Source of the DNA: Chromatiales bacterium USCg_Taylor
GTDB taxonomy: Bacteria > Pseudomonadota > Gammaproteobacteria > JACCXJ01
Reading direction: 5' to 3'
NCBI GenBank assembly: GCA_002007425.1
Contig: MUGK01000047.1
Coordinates: forward strand, 1 to 38,457
Length of the DNA: 38,457 nt
Part shown: positions 6,606 to 38,457 of the stretch, one piece after another
How positions within the stretch are numbered: the stretch's first letter is position 1
Layout of the letters: each line of letters starts with the position of its first letter
Made by a program: the position numbers and the translations under genes
Notes under the pieces: generated by a model
The model's database searches: none
What the model was told of the DNA's origin: nothing
What the model saw: only the letters and a program-made list of their open reading frames with translations

Positions 6606-7966
6606 CTGAGAGATCCCCACGAAATATTGGCGCCAAGCACAATCGTTATGATTGGAGGTTCGGGACTCTGGCGTTACGGAGTGGGATACTTTTCCAAGCG
6701 ATGCATAATTCGGCGGCTGTAAAGTGATCCTGCGCTCGTTCGATGATACGAATGCCGAGAAAGATCACGGATAGAACGTCCCGGTGCCGCACGGTATTGG
6801 CCTGATCGTGACGCATCAGTCCGCGTTCCTTGGCGGTGCTGCCGATGAGCCACAACACCAGCAGCGCGAGGGCCAAGATGAGGAGCAAAATCGCCAGCCG
6901 CTGTGGGTCACGGCTACGATGAAACTCGAGCGCCAGACCAAACCGGGCGCTTTTCATATCGCGGAAGCTCTCTTCGATCTGCATGCGTTGGCGATAGATC
7001 TGTACCACGCTATGGGCGAGCTTGCGGCCAGCCGGTAGATTACTCGCCAAAATCCATGGCTCACGCGCTGCTCGGGCGGCCTTGTTGCTGCGCTGACTGC
7101 GTGAGCGCTTGCCGTAGCGGTTGATTTCATGGCGCCCCTTGGCTTTGCTTTTGTAGATCACCAGTTGGCAGACATGCGCCTGACTACGGGCCAACCGCAC
7201 TTCGCCCAAGACCCGGGGTGTAGCGGTCGCCTGTGGGTGCAGCGAGTTGACCGATATCCAGTCGCTCTCGCTACCGAGCTTGACATAGCGCCGGTCACGC
7301 ACCCGCGACACCCAGCACCATCCCCATGCCTCCACGGCCTGAAACCAGGGCGTCTTGAAGCCGGCGTCGGTCACCAAGATCGGCCGGCATCCGACCGGCA
7401 GCACCGCCTGGAGCCGATGCAGAAACTGCACGTGGGTCTTCGGCTTTACCGCCGTCTTGCGACCGTGCACTTCCTCATACACGGTAAGCGCCCGGCCCTC
7501 GACCGCCAGTGACACGCGTAATACCTGATTGCGCCGCCATTCGTCCAGATCTGACCAATCGACCAGCAGCACCGGTTGTCGCTGCGACCCTACCAGCCGA
7601 TGCGCTAGCACTCCATACATCGCCTCGCGTTCGGATTGCAGATGCGCGTTCGACAACAACCGGTCAGCGCGCTTGATGTTGTGCTTCTCGCGGGCAACAC
7701 CCGCAATAGCGCGGCCCAAGCCGGTTACGGTCATCCGCTGCGATGTCAGACCCGCCCAGACCATCGTCTCTAGCGCCTCTCGACGCACAGCGTGCATCTC
7801 GACGCACGTTTGAATCAGCAATTTGTGCAATACTTCTCGCGCCTGCATGGTGTGACCTCCTGTAAGCTTCGAACACTTCCTTGAGATCATCAGACACCAT
7901 GCAGGTTCCTCATCAATTCAACTTTATCTCGTTGTTTGAAAGACCATTTTCTAGGGGATACCTCAG
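6606..7966 (-). mobile_element. IS4-family insertion sequence, IS10-like (1361 bp)
   Basis: Complete element with imperfect terminal inverted repeats. The left end starts CTGAGAGATCCCC and the right end, reverse-complemented, starts CTGAGGTATCCCC, with GAAA shared two bases further in. CTGAGAGATCCCC is also how IS10 (Tn10) begins. The left end contains a GATC site; the right end does not. A single transposase gene fills it, and a near-perfect 9-bp target duplication flanks it. It sits inside the SPARTA island, splitting a small gene upstream of the DUF2283 relic. Confidence 0.88.
6646..7848 (-). CDS. IS4-family transposase (DDE)
   Basis: Transposase of the surrounding IS. The start at 7848 (MQAREVLHKLL) has GGAGG about eight bases upstream; the frame extends to 7890 but that start is poor. 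The three acidic catalytic positions are visible in context: Asp in LLVDWSDLDEW, Asp in ILVTDAGFKT, and Glu in YRQRMQIEESFRDMK, which is the IS4 signature Y-(2)-R-(3)-E-(6)-K. The length (400 residues) matches IS10-type transposases. No frameshift or stop interrupts it, so it may be active. Confidence 0.93.
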   Translation of the reverse strand: MQAREVLHKLLIQTCVEMHAVRREALETMVWAGLTSQRMTVTGLGRAIAGVAREKHNIKRADRLLSNAHLQSEREAMYGVLAHRLVGSQRQPVLLVDWSDLDEWRRNQVLRVSLAVEGRALTVYEEVHGRKTAVKPKTHVQFLHRLQAVLPVGCRPILVTDAGFKTPWFQAVEAWGWCWVSRVRDRRYVKLGSESDWISVNSLHPQATATPRVLGEVRLARSQAHVCQLVIYKSKAKGRHEINRYGKRSRSQRSNKAARAAREPWILASNLPAGRKLAHSVVQIYRQRMQIEESFRDMKSARFGLALEFHRSRDPQRLAILLLILALALLVLWLIGSTAKERGLMRHDQANTVRHRDVLSVIFLGIRIIERAQDHFTAAELCIAWKSIPLRNARVPNLQS

Positions 7967-8030: not shown

Positions 8031-9486
8031 CTACTTACGGTTGGCGAGGTCTTTAGCAATGCGCTCCGCCGCGCGCCGGCCGCTCACCACCGCGCCGTCG
8101 GAGTGGGCGCTCACTAACCAGTCCCGGCGAAATAAACCCCGTCCTCCGGTTCGAACAGCGCCTGCGCTTTTGCATCGAGCGGCGAGCGGCCGGGCGGCCA
8201 CACCGCGACCGCCGCGGGGTGATGGCTGTAGAGATAGGGCTCGCGCACGTGCGATTTGAAGCCTGGCCAGAGCTTGGAGAGCGCGGCGGTCATTTCCGCG
8301 ACGGCTTCATCGTGTGGTTTCATGTGGAGTCGGCGCGCGGCAGGGCCGTGGACGAGGAGCGAGAAGACATCGGTCTTGGCATTGGGTTCGCCCTCGCTTT
8401 GCGTCCCGTAGATCACACCCAGCGTGCCGTCGCTCAATACCGGCAGCGGTGTTTCACCGTTGACGCGCCAGAGGTTTTCGGCAGTGCGATCGACGATCAG
8501 GTGCGCGACCACGTACTGGCCGAGGTCCAACGATGCAATGGCCTCGCGTTTGGCGCGCGACAACTCCGGCGTCAGGCTGATCGAATGCACCCGTGTGAAG
8601 GGGACCGCGAGCACCACCGCTTCCGCTTCGACCGTCTCGATGCGTCCGGCGTGCTGATAGTAGACCCGTGCGCGCCGTCCGGCGTCTCCGGTTCTGTCGC
8701 GCACCACACGCACGACGCGGGCGGATAGGAGCTTCGGACCGCGGCAAGCGCCTCGATCAAACGGATATTGCCGCCGCGGACGTGATAATGCTTCTGGCCA
8801 CCCTCGAGAAAGATCCCGAATTCCAGTAGACCGGCCAGCGCGCTGAATCGATCCCAGGGCGCCGCCAGCTCGCATTCGATCGTCAATCGCACGAACTCGG
8901 CGGCATTGGGGGGAAGCTTCTCCCGCTCGATCCATTCCGCGAACGATATGCCCTGGAGCGCCCGCACCGCGCCATCTGCCAGACCTTTGGCGAGCGCCGT
9001 TTTTCTCAGCGCCGAGGCCTTCCCGAGCCACGTCGTGAGCGCCGCCTGCTCGTCGTCCGAAAGAAACGTCGCGAAGTACTGCTCAGCGGTGTCCTGAACG
9101 AAAGCGTGCAGCTTGCCGTCGATGATGACGCTGGAGAACGGCTCGCCGCTCTCTTCGTCGTGCGCAATCCCCAGCTCGCGCGCCATCCCGAGCGCCGGAT
9201 TGTCCCCCCACATCTCCTGCAATCCGTATTCGGCCTGCAGGCCGCCGGGATAGCGCGCCGTCGCCACGCGGCCGCCGAAGACATCGCTGGCTTCGATGAC
9301 TTGTGCCACGATGCCACGCTTTTGTAGCTCGTAGGCCGTCGTAAGCCCCGCCAGCCCACCGCCCACTACCACGACGCGCGTCGCCGCGGGGACTTCCGCG
9401 AAGCTGGCCGGGAGTGCCCCGAGCAGGAGTACACACAGCAGGGTCAGCGTTCTCAGCAAGGAACCTTTCTGCATTCGTTTCGCCAA
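8031..9486 (-). pseudogene. FAD-dependent amine oxidase / NAD(P)-binding Rossmann oxidoreductase, frameshifted twice
   Basis: A flavin monoamine-oxidase-type enzyme with an exported N-terminus: signal peptide (LLRTLTLLCVLLLGALPASFA), dinucleotide-binding fold VVVVGGGLAGLTTAYEL and EASDVFGGRVAT. The first frame runs to NIRLIEALAA, then a one-base loss near 8743 moves homology to the frame reading GPKLLSARVVRVVR, which continues through AEAVVLAVPF to DGVYFAGTG. A second one-base loss near 8113 moves the FAD-binding C-terminus (SAHSDGAVVSGRRAAERI) into a third frame, ending at TAG 8031-8033. Homology is otherwise continuous for about 480 residues. Such enzymes oxidise amines or carotenoid-like substrates; the substrate is unknown. 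The 5' end directly abuts the 16-codon remnant in the right direct repeat. Confidence 0.8.
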
Positions 9487-25314: not shown

Positions 25315-27916
25315 TCAATGCGCTTCGTCCCAGTTAGCGCCCACGCCAATATCCACCACCAAGGGCGCCGCGAGCTCCGCGGCCCCTTCCATGATGCTCG
25401 CGAGCCTCGCACGCACCTGCTCGACCGCATCCTCCTCGACCTCGAGCACCAGCTCGTCATGGACCTGCATAATCAGCTTAGCGTTGATTTTCTCCTCATG
25501 GAGCCAGCGATCGACTTCGATCATCGCCCGCTTGATGATGTCGGCGGCGGTCCCTTGCATCGGGGCGTTGATGGCCGTGCGTTCCGCGTACTGGCGGCGC
25601 TGGGTATTTCTGGAATTGATCTCCGGTAGATGCAGGCGGCGGTGATAGACCGTCTCGACGTAGCCTTGCCGTCGGGCGCGTACACGGATCTCTTCCATGA
25701 AAGCTTTTACCCCCGGATAGCGGGAAAAATAGCGATCGATATAGTCCTGGGCCGCGCCGCGATCGATCCCGAGCTGGCGGGCCAGCCCGAACGCGGACAT
25801 GCCATAGATGAGGCCGAAATTGATGGCCTTGGCCGCGCGCCGTTGGTCGGCGCCGACCGTTTCGGGCGTGAGCCCGAAGATCTCCGCCGCGGTGGCGCGA
25901 TGAACATCCTGTCCGGTCGCAAAGGCTTGCCGCAGCAACGGATCACCCGAAAGATGAGCCATGATCCGGAGCTCGATTTGTGAGTAGTCGGCCGCCACCA
26001 AGCGCTGGCCGGGCGGCGCCACGAATGCCCGCCGGATGCGTCGCCCCTCCTCGGTGCGCACCGGTATGTTTTGGAGATTCGGATCCGAGGATGACAGGCG
26101 TCCGGTCGCGGCCACGGCCTGATGGTAGCTCGTATGCACCCGTCCGGTGCGCGCATTGATCTGCTGGGGAAGCTTGTCCGTGTAAGTTGATTTCAGTTTC
26201 GCGAGGCCACGATATTCGAGTATCAATCGCGGTAAGGGATACTCGGCCGCGAGGTCCTGGAGCACCGGCTCGGCGGTGGAGGGCTGCCCCGTGGGAGTCT
26301 TGGCCCTAACAGGTAAACCGAGCTTGTGGTACAAAATTTCCTGGATCTGCTTGGGCGAATCGAGATTGAAGCGCTCACCCGCGAGCGCATGCGCCTCGGC
26401 TTCGACTTCCAACAACCGCCCGCCCAAGGCCCGGCTTTGCTCGTCCAACATTTCCGCATCGATTTGAACACCGTTGCGTTCCATGCGCGACAAGACCGGG
26501 ACCAGCGGCACTTCCATCTCTTCGTAGAGCCGTCGCAACCCGGACTCTTCGGCGAGGCGCGGCCAGAACGCTTGGTGCAACCGCAAACACACCTCCGCAT
26601 CTTCCGCGGAATAGGTCGCGGCTCGATCGACGGGCACCTGGTTGAAGCTGAGCTGGTGAGATCCCTTACCCGCCACGTCCTCAAACAGAATCGTGCGCAC
26701 CCCCAGGTACTTGAGTGCCAGGGAATCCAGATCGTGGCGGGTGGCGGTACTATCGAGAACATAGGACTCCAGCATCGAGTCACAGCGGATCCCACGCAAC
26801 TCCACGCCGTGGTTCGCCAATACGCTCATATCGTACTTAAGATTGTGGCCGAGCTTGAGCGACCGGTACATACGCCGCTTCCCCGGCTTTTAGGGAAAAC
26901 GAGACGCCCACGAGCCCCGCCTGCATGTAGTCCAAACTAGTCGTCTCGGTATCAAAGGCGATAAGCTCGGCATGCCTCAGCCGCTCTATCCATCGATCGA
27001 GCTGTCCACGATCCAGGATCGTTTCATAGCCGGCGGCTTCGACCGGCGGGTCGGGCCGAGGCGCCTCTTCCAGAAGATCGTTCAACCAGGTCTTGAACTC
27101 AAGCTGGGTGAAAAGCGCTTTCAGCGTCTCATTGTCTTGGGGCCCCGGCTTAAGGTCTCTCGGTGTGGCATCAAGGGGGACCGCGCAGGCGATCGTGACC
27201 AGCTTTTTGGAAAGGGCAAGCTGCTGCATGCTCGCGCGCAGGTTATCCCCCAATGTCCCTTTGATGTCGCCGGCATGGGCGAGCAGATTATCGAGACCCC
27301 GGTACTGCTTAAGCCATGCCACGGCGGTTTTGGGTCCGACCTTCGGCACCCCGGGGACATTGTCGACCTTATCCCCGATCAAGCTTAAATAATCCACGAT
27401 GAGCGCGGGCGGGACCCCGAATTTGCGCTCGACGCCTTGCGCATCCATGACACTATTGTCCATCGTGTTCACCAGGGTCACCGCCCCGCTGACGACTTGC
27501 GCGAAGTCCTTATCACCGGTTGCGATGAGCGTGCGAAGACCGGCCTCAGCTGCTTGGATCGCCAGCGTTCCGATGACATCGTCGGCCTCGACGCCCTCGA
27601 TCACCAGCATCGGGACACCCATGGCGCGGACGACCGCGCGCAGGGGCTCGAGCTGAACCCGCAACTCCTCCGGCATAGGGGGCCGGTGCGCCTTGTAAGC
27701 GGGATACATTTCATCGCGAAAGGTCTTGCCCTTGGCATCGAATACCACCGCCAGGTAGTTCGGTGTATAGTCTTTCAGCAACCGGCGCAGCATGGCGATA
27801 AACCCGTGAATGGCTCCCGTGGGTTCTCCGCGCGAGGTGCTCAATGGAGGCAGGGCGTGAAACGCGCGATAAAAGTAAGAGGAACCGTCGACCAGAACCA
27901 GGAGATCTTCCGCCAT
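25315..27916 (-). pseudogene. polA: DNA polymerase I with an out-of-frame internal deletion
   Basis: Repair and Okazaki-fragment polymerase. The start at 27916 (MAEDLLVLVDGSSYFYRAFH) opens the 5'-nuclease domain (VIEGVEADDVIGTLA, ATGDKDFAQVV). The proofreading domain follows (LIAFDTETTSLDYMQAGLVGV). After AAYVPVA (about 26865) the frame breaks and homology resumes in another frame at [18 protein letters not shown], which runs intact through the polymerase motifs [32 protein letters not shown] and [14 protein letters not shown] to the stop at 25315. About 29 residues of the family sequence between these two blocks are missing and the frame changes. The first frame stops at 26837. The flanking domains show no other damage, so an assembly deletion is a real alternative. 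Both halves could in principle still be translated separately. Confidence 0.92.
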
Positions 27917-27952
27917 GGTGTCGTTGCTCGCAATGTGTGCTGATGTTCCATT

Positions 27953-28675
27953 ATGAATAAGAACACTAAAGCCAGCCACCCGGCGCTCGCGCCCGTCAAT
28001 GATTCGGCGCTCGTGCGGGAATCATGGAAGGTGTTCCAAATCATGGCGGAGTTCGTCGAGGGATTTGAGCGCCTGGCCGCCATCCGGCCCGCGGTCAGCA
28101 TCTTTGGGTCCGCCCGTTTCGGCGCCGAGCATCCCTATTACAAGCTGGCCGAAGAGATCGGGTATAGCGTATCGGACGCGGGTTTCTCGGTAGTCACCGG
28201 AGGGGGACCGGGGATCATGGAGGCCGCGAACAAGGGCGCCTATTCGGGTCGCTCACCGAGCATCGGGCTCAACATGCAACTACGGGAAGAGCGCGGTAAC
28301 GCCTTCCAAAATATCAGGCTGAATTTTCGTCATTTCTTTCCCCGCAAGGTGATGTTCGTCAAATACGCTTCAGCCTATGTCGTGCTGCCGGGCGGGTTCG
28401 GCACCCTGGATGAGCTGGCCGAGATCTTGACACTGGTCCAAACCGGCAAGACGCGGAAGATCCCGATCATCCTGGTCGGAAGCGACTTTTGGCGTGGTTT
28501 GATCGAGTGGTTCAAGAATACCTTGGTCGGCTAAGCCACTATTGACGCTACGGATATTGACCTATTTGAGGTAGTAGACCATCCGCGGGAGGTGGTCGAT
28601 GCGATCTTCCGGCATTATGAACATCGCGAGTTTGCGCTCTCGGCGGAAGAGCAAGAAATGCACATGCACTTATAA
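27953..28675 (+). pseudogene. LOG-family protein (TIGR00730-like) with an in-frame stop
   Basis: Cytokinin-riboside phosphoribohydrolase-type (LOG) Rossmann protein. Seen: VSIFGSARFGAEHPYY, VVTGGGPGIMEAANKGA, then the LOG signature PGGFGTLDELAE. At 28532-28534 a TAA follows WFKNTLVG. The same frame continues without interruption for 46 more codons (ATIDATDIDLFEVVDHPREV, EEQEMHMHL) to TAA at 28673-28675. Those 46 codons are the normal C-terminus, so a single base change (most simply GAA to TAA) is the cause. The truncated 193-residue product still holds the whole active site and may work. It is divergent from polA with 36 bp between the starts. Confidence 0.85.
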
Positions 28676-33490: not shown

Positions 33491-34675
33491 TCATACGCTT
33501 TGAGACACACCTCGAAACGTGTCATAAAGCAGGCGATGCGTTATCGCTTCCCAAGAATAATTGCTTGATTGATCCTTGGCGCTTAGTCCTATTTTGGCTC
33601 GTGTCCTGTCGTTATTTACGAGATTTTTCACCTGGGAAACAAATTCTTCCATGCCGTCGGCCAACAACAGAAAATCCAGCTTACGTCTCGTTAATTCGGC
33701 CGTTCGAGTTGCAACCACTGGCAATCCGCTGGCACCATACTCAAATAGCTTCATCGGACTCCTTCCATCATTCGCCGGATGATCGCTTAACGGAAGTAAT
33801 CCTATGTCAGCGTGCTGAAAGTAGGCCGGCAGCTGATCGTATTTCCGCGGTCCTAATAAATGGATGTTGTTACCGGCACCTAACTGCTTGACAACATCGT
33901 TTCCGTACGGACCGATTAGAATGACGTTGGCGTGCGGAAGACACTTTGCTGTCGCGCTTACGGCCTTGTATCCGAACCGTCCATCCAGCGCACCGGCATA
34001 AACGAGTCTGGGAGAGGGTATCTCGGCATATTCAGGAGGCGCCATAGCAGGCTTTGAAAAAAACAGGTAGTCCACGCCGTTTTCCAACATTGTAGCAGGT
34101 TTGTCCGGCGCCAAACTTCGTAATCTGTTGAAAACCGGCTGCGACGTTCCAATAAGAAAGTCCGCTCGATTTGCCATCTCTTTCTCGGTCGTTTCATTAC
34201 GTAGATCACCAAGCATTTCACTGTATAGGTCAGTCGCTCTATAGACCGTTATCTTGGGGTTAACGATCTTTTCTAAACCAACGAAAATGGGCTGATCAAC
34301 TAGAAGGAGATCGACAGCAGTAAATTTATATCGCCGAAGAATTTGCCGGATAGGTGGAAGCGTGAGGAGACACGGACCGCACTGCGTGGAAAGTCGATAG
34401 GCAATCCTCTTGGGAATTAAGCCCAGTGGTACATAATCGATCACCCCATCGTGATACGCTCTCCCACCATGCCACCAAGTCTCAAAGCGACCTTTGGTTT
34501 CGGCATTAGACCAACCGACTAGATGAAATGGCGTCACGGGAGTACTTAGGTGCAACACGCGGTGACCTTGGTTCGCTAAGCATCGTGCGAGATGATGGGA
34601 ACCCACCACAAATGTCCCGCCCATGAAGGTATGGCTAGCGAAAACAATCGTTAGCTTTTTGAAACCGATTGTCAT
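33491..34675 (-). CDS. Glycosyltransferase, GT-B fold (GumK/GT4-like)
   Basis: 394 residues. N-terminal domain: LTIVFASHTFMGGTFVVGSHHLAR. C-terminal domain: RLVYAGALDGRFGYKAV, VILIGPYGND, DIGLLPLSDHP and SPMKLFEYGASGLPVVAT, the acidic nucleotide-sugar loop region. KITVYRATDLYSEM with a following LENGVDY resembles GumK-like glucuronosyltransferases and relatives. Donor and acceptor sugars cannot be predicted. 80 bp downstream of the BY-kinase gene on the same strand, so most likely cotranscribed in an exopolysaccharide operon. Confidence 0.85.
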   Translation of the reverse strand: MTIGFKKLTIVFASHTFMGGTFVVGSHHLARCLANQGHRVLHLSTPVTPFHLVGWSNAETKGRFETWWHGGRAYHDGVIDYVPLGLIPKRIAYRLSTQCGPCLLTLPPIRQILRRYKFTAVDLLLVDQPIFVGLEKIVNPKITVYRATDLYSEMLGDLRNETTEKEMANRADFLIGTSQPVFNRLRSLAPDKPATMLENGVDYLFFSKPAMAPPEYAEIPSPRLVYAGALDGRFGYKAVSATAKCLPHANVILIGPYGNDVVKQLGAGNNIHLLGPRKYDQLPAYFQHADIGLLPLSDHPANDGRSPMKLFEYGASGLPVVATRTAELTRRKLDFLLLADGMEEFVSQVKNLVNNDRTRAKIGLSAKDQSSNYSWEAITHRLLYDTFRGVSQSV

Positions 34676-34755: not shown

Positions 34756-37700
34756 TCACGATAGTTGGGTATGCTTAGGGAGCTTCATATAGTATTTATT
34801 TAGGCTCGTATTATAGGCAGCTGCGTCCGGGAACCTTGAAGCCGCGTGGATTTTTGAATCGACCATCGACAACACAACTCCATTAACGCGGCCTCCGGCG
34901 CTGGCGATCATCTTTATTCCATACTTAACGATTTCTCGGCGTGTCGAGGCCCATTTCGCGATGTACACGGTGGTATCAACTTTTGTTGCAAGAACGCGTG
35001 AATCCGTGACGGCCATCACCGGCGGCGAATCTAGGATTACTAAATCGAATCTGTTTGCCAACTGGTCGAGTAGCACGTCCAACCGCTCGGAATTGATATA
35101 GTAATTCGGGTTCGTGACAGGGCGTCCGGCGCATATCACACGCGCGCCAGATGCTTCGTCTGTTCGGATTGCGTCGTCAAGAGATACCTCGTCGTCCAAG
35201 ATCTCGATAAGGCCCGGTTCGCGTTTGATGCCTAAGGTGCTGTGAATTCTCGGAGTTCTAAGATCGGCGTCCACAATAAGTACCTGTTGCCCAGTGAGGG
35301 CCCAAAGTCTCGCTAAGCACAAAGCTATCGTTGTCTTACCTTCCAGTGGCAACGACGAAGCGATAAGAACGGTTCTTGGCGGCGCGCCCACCGTACTGAA
35401 ACGAATACTCGTGTAAAGCGCGTGGAACGACTCGGTGATTGCCGATCGGGGCTGATTGAGAATATATGATTCTAGTTTTTTTCCAATACTGCCAAGTCCA
35501 CCGAACTTGGGGATCGAACCAAGACCTGGAAATCCGGTGGCACGTTCAATCTGTTCGCTACTCCGAAAGCCTGGGTCCAACTCCTCGATGACGTATATAA
35601 CAGTGAACGCGATAAACAGCGAAACGACGAAGGCCAGAGCAAGGATTATTTTTTTTCTCGGATAAGTCGGTTTGTTGGGCACATCTGCATAAGAGATGAC
35701 ATGCGCATCAGCCTGCCGTGCCCCAAGATATTCTTGCGAATTCGATTCCTTTGTGCGCGTCAAAAAGGTCGCTAAGAGCACCTTATTCGCATCGGCTTCC
35801 CCTTGCAATGCTCGTAATTGAACATCGCTTTCGTTGGACTTACCCACCTGCTTCTCAAGCTCTCTTAGTCGTGACTGAAACGCATATTCGCGCGCGCTGG
35901 CAATATCAGCCTCGTGCTGCAACCCTCTAGAAATCTTACCGATTTCCGCGTTTATCTTGGTTTGTAAATCGCGCTTTTCAGCTTGTAGCTGCAGCATGGT
36001 GGGATGTTTTTCCCCGAGATCCTCGGAAAGCTCGGCAGACTTGCGCACTAGCTCTGCTTCTTGTCCTCTGAGCCCCTGGATCAAACCAGATCCGAGTACT
36101 TCTGAAATAGAATCGGCGCTACCGTCCGCTGCAGTTGACCCTCGTCTTTGGTCTCTGAGGCGGGCCTGCGCCGCCGCTCTCTCCGCTCGTGCCTGGACTA
36201 ACTGTGTGTTTAATTCAGAGATCTCCTGCGCCACCAAGGTCCCGTCCCGGCCTTGGATTAAACCGGACTCCCGGCGGTACTTTTCGACTGCCTTCTCGGA
36301 GTCCTCAACTTGCTTACGTACTGCGGCGATGCGCTCGTCCAGCCATTCGGTCGTTTGTCGGGCCGCCCCGAGCTTGTTTTCGATCCGCGCCCCAATATAA
36401 AGGTCGGCAACAACGTTGGCTATATTGGAAGCCTTTTCGGCGCCCTCTGACGCAAATGCCACAGTGATTACCCGCGATCGCCCCTTCGGAGCGACGCTAA
36501 GTTGTCCTAGAAAGGTATCCACGACCGCTGCTCGCTCACGCGCTTGACGCTGCGCATCGGACTCCGCCCCTTCTTCCGTAGAGCCAAACATTTCTGTTAC
36601 CGTTTGCTTCAGTTGCTCGATAACGGCGGCGAACTCTGTTTTCGGTTGCAATTCGGCGTTAAATTCTGGATCTTGCTCTAGTTTCAGCCGATCCACCACT
36701 TTGCCTACCATGCTACGTCCGAGAAGGACTTCAATTTCGCTGGCAATAGTCTCGGAATCCATAGGCAGATTCGGCATCACTTCCGGTAGCCCGATGTTCA
36801 CGCGTTCCTGGCCGTCAACCATGATCGATGCTTCAGCCTCGTATCGTGGAGTCAACATGAATAAAACCACGGTCGTTAAGGCCAATAATGTACCTACGAC
36901 ACCCATCAGTATCCATTTTCGCTGCAATAGCGTGGAGAAAAAGTCTGCTAACGGCATTGACGAGCCTGCGCTAACTAGTGGCTCACCAGATATCGCTTCA
37001 TGGGGCATCATCAAGGGCCGCCCGGTGTTTTTCACTAATGATGATCCGGGATCGTTTACGGTAGTGATACTGCTCATGTCTTTAGCTTCGCGCCGGCGCT
37101 TCACGTGTAGCTCGCCGCTCTTGACCCGCTGGCGGCGCCAGCCCGAAATTTTTGCAGTGGAAATGCCTTCCCGATCGAAGATCTCCAAGATTTTAGTAAC
37201 GTTATTGCAACGCCCTACCTGCTTAAGAATCCGGCGTTCACGATCGGCGTCGAAATAGCGTAGCTCGTGTTCCCCCTCCGGCGCGCTATCGTCTTTCGGG
37301 AAATCTTCTATTGAGTCTCCAATGGCTTGGAGCAGGGAATGCAGTTCGTTAGCCTCTGGTCTTACAGCTTGGCGCCGGATACGCTCTATTGTTTCGCCAA
37401 GAGAGCGGAGTAGGGAACGAGATGCCATAGCCACGGGCGCATTGTCCGGTTGCGGCGTATGCTCTATTGATTCGGTCACGAAGGCATCCGTGATCTCATG
37501 CATAAACGCATCTATGATCGAACTCTTTGAACCAAGCTCTTTAGCTCTGCCATGCCGGCGCCGCCAGCGCCCGACTTGTACAGGTAAAACACCTTCTTTA
37601 TCCAGTATTTCCACGATCTGGCTCGCATTCGTGCAGCCCTCAATCTCCACCAGGACACGGTGTTCGTTATTCAGGTTGGAAGAGGGCAGTTCGTGTTCGT

Positions 37701-37935
37701 CGGGGTCTTTATTCTCTGGAGTGCCATCCTCTTGCGGAAAATCTTCGATTGATTCTGTAAGAGATCGGCACAGGGAACGAAGCTCCTCAGCCTCACGTGT
37801 GTTATCGCCCTGCGGGATCCGTGCTATTGATTTGATAACGGCTCGGAGTAGGGAACGGTGTTCCTTTGCCTTTGGCATGTCATCTTCCTGCAAACTCTGT
37901 CCTGTTGATTTCGTCATAACTGCCTCTATTCTCAA
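34756..37935 (-). CDS. Polysaccharide co-polymerase / BY-family tyrosine kinase (Wzc-like) with a duplicated HTH-repeat N-terminus
   Basis: Controls chain length and export of an exopolysaccharide. From about residue 328 it is a standard Wzc protein: Wzz domain (PLADFFSTLLQRKW), helix 1 (342-361), long coiled coils (QTTEWLDERIAAVRKQVED), helix 2 (ILALAFVVSLFIAFTVIYVI), then the kinase with Walker A SSLPLEGKTT (Lys867), Walker A' LIVDADLRTP (Asp889, Asp891) and Walker B VILDSPP (Asp969). Only three tyrosines (1041, 1048, 1049) form the C-terminal cluster. Residues 1-327 are extra. They form two units, each of two or three short repeats (RSLLRA-x-x-x-SI-x-x-x-PQ-x-D type) followed by a helix-turn-helix-like block (90-137 and 230-283) ending GRWRRRHGR or SGWRRQRVKSGEL, like the N-terminal HTH of IS3-type transposases. 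The start at 37935 is an ATG; a later start near 287 (MSSITTV) would give a normal-sized kinase. Confidence 0.9.
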   Translation of the reverse strand: MRIEAVMTKSTGQSLQEDDMPKAKEHRSLLRAVIKSIARIPQGDNTREAEELRSLCRSLTESIEDFPQEDGTPENKDPDEHELPSSNLNNEHRVLVEIEGCTNASQIVEILDKEGVLPVQVGRWRRRHGRAKELGSKSSIIDAFMHEITDAFVTESIEHTPQPDNAPVAMASRSLLRSLGETIERIRRQAVRPEANELHSLLQAIGDSIEDFPKDDSAPEGEHELRYFDADRERRILKQVGRCNNVTKILEIFDREGISTAKISGWRRQRVKSGELHVKRRREAKDMSSITTVNDPGSSLVKNTGRPLMMPHEAISGEPLVSAGSSMPLADFFSTLLQRKWILMGVVGTLLALTTVVLFMLTPRYEAEASIMVDGQERVNIGLPEVMPNLPMDSETIASEIEVLLGRSMVGKVVDRLKLEQDPEFNAELQPKTEFAAVIEQLKQTVTEMFGSTEEGAESDAQRQARERAAVVDTFLGQLSVAPKGRSRVITVAFASEGAEKASNIANVVADLYIGARIENKLGAARQTTEWLDERIAAVRKQVEDSEKAVEKYRRESGLIQGRDGTLVAQEISELNTQLVQARAERAAAQARLRDQRRGSTAADGSADSISEVLGSGLIQGLRGQEAELVRKSAELSEDLGEKHPTMLQLQAEKRDLQTKINAEIGKISRGLQHEADIASAREYAFQSRLRELEKQVGKSNESDVQLRALQGEADANKVLLATFLTRTKESNSQEYLGARQADAHVISYADVPNKPTYPRKKIILALAFVVSLFIAFTVIYVIEELDPGFRSSEQIERATGFPGLGSIPKFGGLGSIGKKLESYILNQPRSAITESFHALYTSIRFSTVGAPPRTVLIASSLPLEGKTTIALCLARLWALTGQQVLIVDADLRTPRIHSTLGIKREPGLIEILDDEVSLDDAIRTDEASGARVICAGRPVTNPNYYINSERLDVLLDQLANRFDLVILDSPPVMAVTDSRVLATKVDTTVYIAKWASTRREIVKYGIKMIASAGGRVNGVVLSMVDSKIHAASRFPDAAAYNTSLNKYYMKLPKHTQLS
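37087..37248 (-). other. Transposase-like HTH module 2 within the BY-kinase
   Basis: Residues 230-283 of the kinase: RERRILKQVGRCNNVTKILE followed by DREGISTAKISGWRRQR and KSGEL. The order (helix, C-x-x-x-x-x-I-x-x-x-L/F-x-REG, S/A-x-I-x-x-WRRQR, x-GEL) is that of the N-terminal HTH of IS3-family transposase subunits. Paralogous to module 1. Confidence 0.6.
37525..37668 (-). other. Transposase-like HTH module 1 within the BY-kinase
   Basis: Residues 90-137: EHRVLVEIEGCTNASQIVEI followed by DKEGVLPVQVGRWRRRHGR and AKELG. Aligns with module 2 without gaps over about 45 residues (E/R-R-x-L-x-x-x-x-x-C-x-N, DxEG, WRRxR). More diverged from the transposase pattern than module 2. Confidence 0.55.
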
Positions 37936-38457
37936 ACTTTAGTGATAGCTTTTTCGAGTGTCGCTAAATTGACAAAGACCAAGAATGACCTACTCCAATG
38001 CTATCCGGCTGCTACTATAACCAATTCAATCTGAGGGCCTTGCTTCTTTGGCCATCATCAATTACCTCTAGCGCGTACCCGGATTGAACGCCATCGTAAT
38101 ACCCTAAGTCTACGATTCATATGATTCGATCCGTTTGGGGACGCCACAACGAATGGCAAGGGAAAAGACTGCAGACTGCTGTGCGGGTGCGTTTGTACCT
38201 TCCATGTTCTTACCATGTCCATGCGCGGCGCTGACGGCCGTTTCTCAATAATGCGGAGCGAAATAATAAACCCTCTTGCCCGCGTTCCAAGGACAGCAGA
38301 TGCACTATCCCAGGCACTAACCATACTAGAGCCTGATCGGGTTCAAATGTCAATAGTGGACAGTATTTTCTAATCTTAAAATGAGCCTGAAAAGGGTAAT
38401 AGAGTCCCCCTTAGAGAGAAGGACTCCTGGACCTCAGGGGATGCCTGGGGGCGTTGT
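37936..38457. other. Upstream region of the polysaccharide operon
   Basis: About 520 bp of AT-richer sequence with no convincing gene; a small minus-strand frame at 38058-38324 lacks any recognisable motif. The promoter of the kinase operon should lie here, but no clear -35/-10 pair, operator or riboswitch could be fixed by eye. Confidence 0.4.

Follow-up and report, generated by a model that had tools for sequence, protein, structure and literature searches.

A membrane tyrosine autokinase with an N-terminal extension of tandem repeats and IS3 OrfA-type helix-turn-helix domains

Results

The kinase gene and its surroundings

The window (the whole stretch of DNA analyzed, 38,457 nucleotides from contig MUGK01000047.1 of Chromatiales bacterium USCg_Taylor) carries on its minus strand one uninterrupted reading frame (34756..37935) for a BY-kinase / polysaccharide co-polymerase with an N-terminal extension; all features of this gene given below lie on the same strand. 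The product has 1059 residues when read from TTG 37935 and 1053 when read from ATG 37917; the ATG is the more likely start, with an AGAGG just before it at about 37923-37927, and residue numbers are counted from the TTG. A glycosyltransferase gene identified by Pfam follows downstream on the same strand (33491..34675), and on the upstream side of the kinase gene 522 bp remain to the end of the contig. A promoter scan and an inverted-repeat search upstream of the kinase gene returned nothing striking except one imperfect 16-bp palindrome (38113-38128, ~200 bp upstream of the likely start), which is a candidate operator and could be due to chance. Elsewhere in the window, DNA polymerase I is divided between two overlapping minus-strand frames (25315-26871 and 26837-27979), one holding the 5'-3' exonuclease and the start of the 3'-5' exonuclease and the other the remainder and the polymerase, a frameshift that is either real or from assembly; a DDE_Tnp_1 transposase gene lies at 6646-7890 (minus strand).

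Past the extension, the protein has the predicted make-up of an intact-looking Wzz/GumC-type tyrosine kinase, that is, a BY-kinase polysaccharide co-polymerase. The Wzz domain (36688..36951; PF02706, E 5e-10, 40 bits against a Pfam cut-off of 25.5) includes the first of two transmembrane helices seen by hydropathy (about 36844-36918, residues 340-364), the second of which is at 35575..35661 (residues 759-787), so that Wzz is accompanied by two flanking transmembrane helices. The ATPase core (34987..35340; AAA_31, E 3e-9, 37.4 bits against a cut-off of 27) has Walker A, A' and B motifs at residues 866, 887 and 967, as in ParA/MinD-like P-loop kinases; BY-kinases are relatives of the ParA/MinD ATPases. 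Three tyrosines within the last 40 residues (Y1041, Y1048 and Y1049; 34789..34815) form a modest C-terminal cluster. The NCBIfam matches are to exopolysaccharide transport and tyrosine autokinase families, TIGR01007 above its cut-off (118.6 against 108) and TIGR01005 under its curated one (350 against 412 bits), and the Pfam match to GNVR is just under cut-off. The protein thus shares Wzz, two transmembrane helices, Walker motifs and C-terminal tyrosines with Wzc/GumC/ExoP-type co-polymerases (TIGR01005, PF02706 plus PF13614), from which it differs by about 290 additional cytosolic residues that precede the first transmembrane helix and contain two helix-turn-helix domains (HTHs) along with six repeats. 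The cytosolic location follows from the known topology of this kinase family, in which the N-terminus preceding the first transmembrane helix is cytosolic. Repeats and HTHs are therefore predicted to extend, at its N-terminus, a membrane tyrosine autokinase by which exopolysaccharide polymerization and export are controlled.

A unit of three repeats and one HTH occurs twice

Residues 1-290 consist of two tandem units, each made of three repeats of ~26 residues and one HTH, in the order r0-r1-r2-HTH1-r3-r4-r5-HTH2, where four repeats are clear and two degenerate. In ungapped self-comparison of residues 1-310 the two units align with scores of 133 (offset 146) and 127 (offset 142) and the 26-residue offset scores 68, against a mean best score of 31 and a maximum of 53 in 500 composition-preserving shuffles. 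The preliminary description, made from the sequence alone, had proposed that such repeats stand as sets before each HTH and that the unit of repeats plus HTH was duplicated as a whole; with scores of this size, three repeats ahead of each HTH and 38% amino-acid identity between the units, both proposals are borne out, and the repeats are real. The BY-kinase / polysaccharide co-polymerase nature of the host protein and the IS3 OrfA type of the HTHs had gone unrecognized in that description. The similarity extends to DNA, where 81-nt copies of the repeat are 67-73% identical to the reference copy.

The clear copies, found by self-comparison and shuffle test, are r1 (residues 27-52; 37780..37857), r2 (residues 53-78; 37702..37779), r4 (residues 173-198; 37342..37419) and r5 (residues 199-224; 37264..37341), each of 26 residues; in all six pairings among them 0 of 2000 shuffles score as well. 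Four of the five repeat starts first suggested (27, 53, 173 and 199) coincide with these copies, while the remaining one (154) falls in the middle of r3 (residues 147-172; 37420..37497), a half-degenerate repeat by shuffle test whose similarity to the others lies mainly in its second half. The degenerate copy suspected near the N-terminus is r0 (residues 1-26; 37858..37917, with coordinates taken from the likely ATG), for which 1 to 139 of 2000 shuffles are as good, depending on the partner repeat. The whole repeat and HTH region spans about 37099-37917, in agreement with the 37087-37890 originally assigned to it.

Each clear copy begins with a short amphipathic helix-like stretch and ends in a tail resembling PQ-x-D-x-x-PE. 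The repeats had been called amphipathic without distinction, which holds for r5, r2, r4 and r1 (amphipathicity exceeded by 1, 3, 14 and 59 of 2000 shuffles, respectively) and not for r0 and r3, which do not stand out against the same number of shuffles. The repeat segments are net acidic (18 D/E against 7-11 K/R). By codon comparison dN/dS between the units is 0.45 (bootstrap 0.24-0.72), with 0.29 (0-0.63) for the HTH part and 0.57 (0.29-1.08) for the repeat part, estimates that are rough because there are few codons and dS is near 1; the duplicated part therefore appears to have stayed under constraint, mostly in the HTH.

Among the loci and genomes searched, the 26-residue repeats are found only in the window. 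They are absent from all three related HTH-bearing kinases described below (G213, G197 and G301), so that a variable repeat number among homologues cannot be demonstrated. Searched against the 369 class genomes, a repeat profile (A8) has five matches at E <= 0.01 that lie outside the window, the best of which (E 1.1e-4, in a helical frame of 1,847 residues) is taken as coiled-coil likeness; against the loci of the kinase survey, the best match outside the window's own copies has E 0.68.

Both HTHs resemble that of IS3-family OrfA

HTH1 (37525..37671) and HTH2 (37099..37245) both keep W-R-R in the third helix, and HTH2 is strongly basic (18 K/R against 9 D/E). Scans of the extension against Pfam, NCBIfam, PHROGs and PDB sequences gave nothing above threshold, with no Pfam HTH match at all in the window N-terminus; no relative was found for the whole extension among genome contigs and viral contigs, or for its first 172 residues among phages. 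A tblastn search of the extension against plasmids gave five weak matches, all at the HTH2 region. Four of the five were examined: two are immediately followed by an annotated IS3 family transposase and two by a DDE-type integrase/transposase, and the four plasmid-encoded proteins score 22.0 to 26.0 bits against HTH_Tnp_1 (cut-off 24.1). A profile of OrfA built from these four proteins scores 33.8 bits with HTH2, a value biased by the fact that HTH2 led to the profile; the unbiased tests are HTH1 (15.8 bits) and the HTHs of loci L025 (25.4 bits) and L037 (24.9 bits), compared with 10.4 bits for the best of 2000 shuffles.

In the reverse test, a profile built solely from kinase-fused HTHs (A7) matched 16 of the 369 class genomes at E <= 0.01, of which three are kinase carriers (the window's genome, G197 and G301) and 13 are others. 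Seven non-carrier genomes (eight places) reach E <= 2.1e-5, all in OrfA-like frames of 136-165 residues. For six of the seven such frames read, a long transposase-like frame lies directly downstream, its transposase nature being judged by eye and partly from mutual likeness; at L185 no transposase-like frame was seen downstream. Since A7 thus finds mainly free-standing IS3 OrfA genes, the window HTHs can be placed in the IS3 OrfA family, and at the level of sequence profiles these comparisons show them to be homologous to the HTH of IS3-family OrfA. With IS3-family OrfA (HTH_Tnp_1, PF01527) they share the HTH pattern R-R-I-L...C...E-G...W-R-R. They differ from it in being present in two copies, in being fused to a membrane kinase, in lacking a matched leucine zipper (the OrfA profile match covers positions 37-104 of 153 and ends there) and in lacking OrfB: no overlapping OrfB/DDE frame lies downstream, where the kinase continues in the same frame and is followed by the glycosyltransferase.

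For the extension as a whole, AF2 gives a poor model (pLDDT 41). HTH2, modeled with HTH1 as a second row, forms three helices at pLDDT 66, about 80 over the first two; Foldseek places homeodomains first for this model, with all matches at E > 1. A decayed IS3 OrfA-like stretch with stop codons is present elsewhere in the window's own genome (G000:C71, L057/L209, near 8983-9087, minus strand) and is a possible local source of such HTHs.

Related kinases with and without an HTH

The kinase core has matches at E <= 1e-40 in 51 of the 369 class genomes. Apart from the window, the best are in G213 (39% identity, frame of 1088 residues), G197 (38%, 828 residues) and G059 (36%, 764 residues); G301, a relative of G197, is cut by a contig end. 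The G059 kinase has no HTH, whereas those of G213, G197 and G301 carry an N-terminal OrfA HTH in frame, at the same place as in the window. The idea that chance read-through joined an unrelated stretch to the front of the kinase was rejected because these three other kinases have an HTH at that same place in the frame. G197 and G301 have one HTH each, of the window's OrfA subtype, with a less basic third helix (SKWWKEF/SKWWREF), so that DNA binding may be lost there. The HTH of G213 (L024) belongs to a different OrfA subtype and is 75% identical over 44 residues to plasmid IS3 DNA (E 3e-15), with further matches to annotated IS3 family transposases (e.g., H9, 70.5%). The L037 HTH, which is of the window's subtype, matches a plasmid IS3 OrfA beside OrfB (E 5e-7). 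Scores of the L037 and G213 HTHs to Pfam HTH families are under the curated cut-offs, and the L025 HTH has no Pfam HTH match.

The G213 kinase also has three near-identical Pro/Ala-rich repeats of 27 residues between its OrfA HTH and Wzz (residues about 170-250), unrelated in sequence to the 26-residue repeats of the window. Its gene has a LuxR-type response regulator and a histidine kinase among its neighbors, and the G197 kinase gene adjoins Poly_export (Wza-like) and BBP2_2 genes. G066, the third species of the genus of G197 and G301, has no core match.

The HTH scan took in 146 kinase rows, a few of them partial (37 from the class search, window included; 80 named genome loci; 29 phylum loci drawn from 110 matching genomes), and 14 further long frames were added to the survey. 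Profile scans of 229 loci found fused HTHs in the window, G197 and G301, and in G213 with its own subtype, and in no others; the fusion is thus rare, with four carriers among the part of genomes sampled. A second BY-kinase in the window's own genome (C173, L019) lacks the extension, and three BY-kinase matches contain one in-frame TAG each (G347:C4:500679-502850, G682:C8:121774-123927 and G716:C35:30394-32544).

In a tree of 32 kinase cores, from which the truncated G301 was left out, the window forms a group with L025 (HTH) and L063 (no HTH) at 94/93, to which L024 (HTH, other subtype) and L064 (no HTH) are added at 95/83, so that three of the five members have an HTH, of two OrfA subtypes. 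Among named kin, the nearest are metagenome bins from the alphaproteobacteria and gammaproteobacteria. Some close kin in the branch have no HTH (L061-L064); the module is therefore not needed for the kinase. With two OrfA subtypes among kinases of one branch, OrfA HTHs were probably recruited at least twice. Two captures are the simplest reading of the tree; one capture with replacement and losses is a less simple alternative.

Discussion

For the function of the extension, the most likely proposal is that each subunit contributes two DNA-contacting HTHs, set apart by short amphipathic helices, which would attach the kinase ring to DNA or allow it to sense DNA. We put the chances at about even that OrfA-type HTHs and repeats act in this way, as a DNA-contacting extension coupling DNA to the ring; both the contact and its effect are what we infer from sequence. 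The HTHs would face the cytosol and still bind DNA, while the short repeat helices would pack mutually or against ring neighbors and keep the HTHs aligned. With its 16 HTHs, an octamer would contact DNA avidly at the membrane, the partner being the promoter of its own operon or the nucleoid. Such contact would couple DNA to the way in which the kinase ring assembles and disassembles, making the protein either a membrane-bound transcription regulator or a kinase with a DNA-sensing switch.

Wzc octamers form and dissociate along with phosphorylation of the tail (PMC11986026), and the N-terminal part of IS911 OrfAB, with its HTH, binds DNA (PMC2909936). A parallel that works alike is YabT of Bacillus subtilis, a membrane Ser/Thr kinase activated through a cytosolic, DNA-binding juxtamembrane region (PMC6333020); unlike the window protein it is Hanks-type and not a polysaccharide co-polymerase, and its basic region is disordered without DNA and is not an HTH. 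In Streptococcus pneumoniae the BY-kinase CpsD interacts with ParB and affects chromosome segregation, but CpsC/D, which has no such domain, was not found to bind DNA (PMC4574921), in contrast to what is proposed here; it therefore offers no BY-kinase precedent for direct binding.

It is unlikely, yet deserves weight, that the HTHs derived from OrfA no longer bind DNA and, together with the repeats, form a protein-protein scaffold that stabilizes or regulates the kinase ring or recruits a glycosyltransferase. The amphipathic character of the clear repeats, the net acidity of the repeat segments and the less basic third helix in G197 and G301 would all suit a scaffold, as would the multimerization of IS3 transposases themselves, reported for IS911 (PMC2909936). 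However, the leucine-zipper part of OrfA is unmatched in the window, and HTH2 is strongly basic and retains the third-helix W-R-R. A functionless ornament, in which an IS3 remnant lying ahead of the kinase came to be read in frame with it and was then duplicated, is improbable. IS3 remnants do occur in the same genome (the decayed OrfA of C71) and in the same family (G001), the fusion is rare and the G213 HTH is close to living IS3 elements; against this, dN/dS between the units is below 1 even at its upper bootstrap bound, codon-position G+C of the extension is like that of the kinase core, 300 residues have been kept open, two species of one genus (G197 and G301) have both kept the HTH, and one kinase branch holds two OrfA subtypes. 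That an internal ATG (MSSITTVND, about residue 287) yields an ordinary kinase, the upstream part being a separate product or a partial read-through, would fit the many kin that begin 20-50 residues before Wzz, but is very improbable given the uninterrupted frame, the AGAGG before ATG 37917 and the in-frame HTHs of G197, G301 and G213.

Returning to DNA contact as the preferred reading, a wider scenario may be advanced only tentatively: that this branch captured IS3 heads at least twice, giving DNA-binding export machines, and that duplication of the head together with repeat spacers produced, in the window, a multivalent tether that couples polymer export and the state of the kinase with transcription or the position of the nucleoid. 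A literature search found no paper on a BY-kinase bearing an HTH or a transposase domain, which is weak evidence of absence, as subscription journals were mostly uncovered and no protein-architecture database was included.

The link of the pneumococcal BY-kinase to the chromosome runs only through a partner protein. With a BY-kinase that has DNA-binding domains of its own, the connection of polymer export to DNA could be tested directly. Such a protein would also illustrate the reuse of DNA-binding heads from transposases within a membrane machine, and there are hints that they were captured repeatedly in one protein branch. The likeness to OrfA suggests that the helix part of the extension module was borrowed from a transposase, and that sugar export may here be tied directly to DNA.
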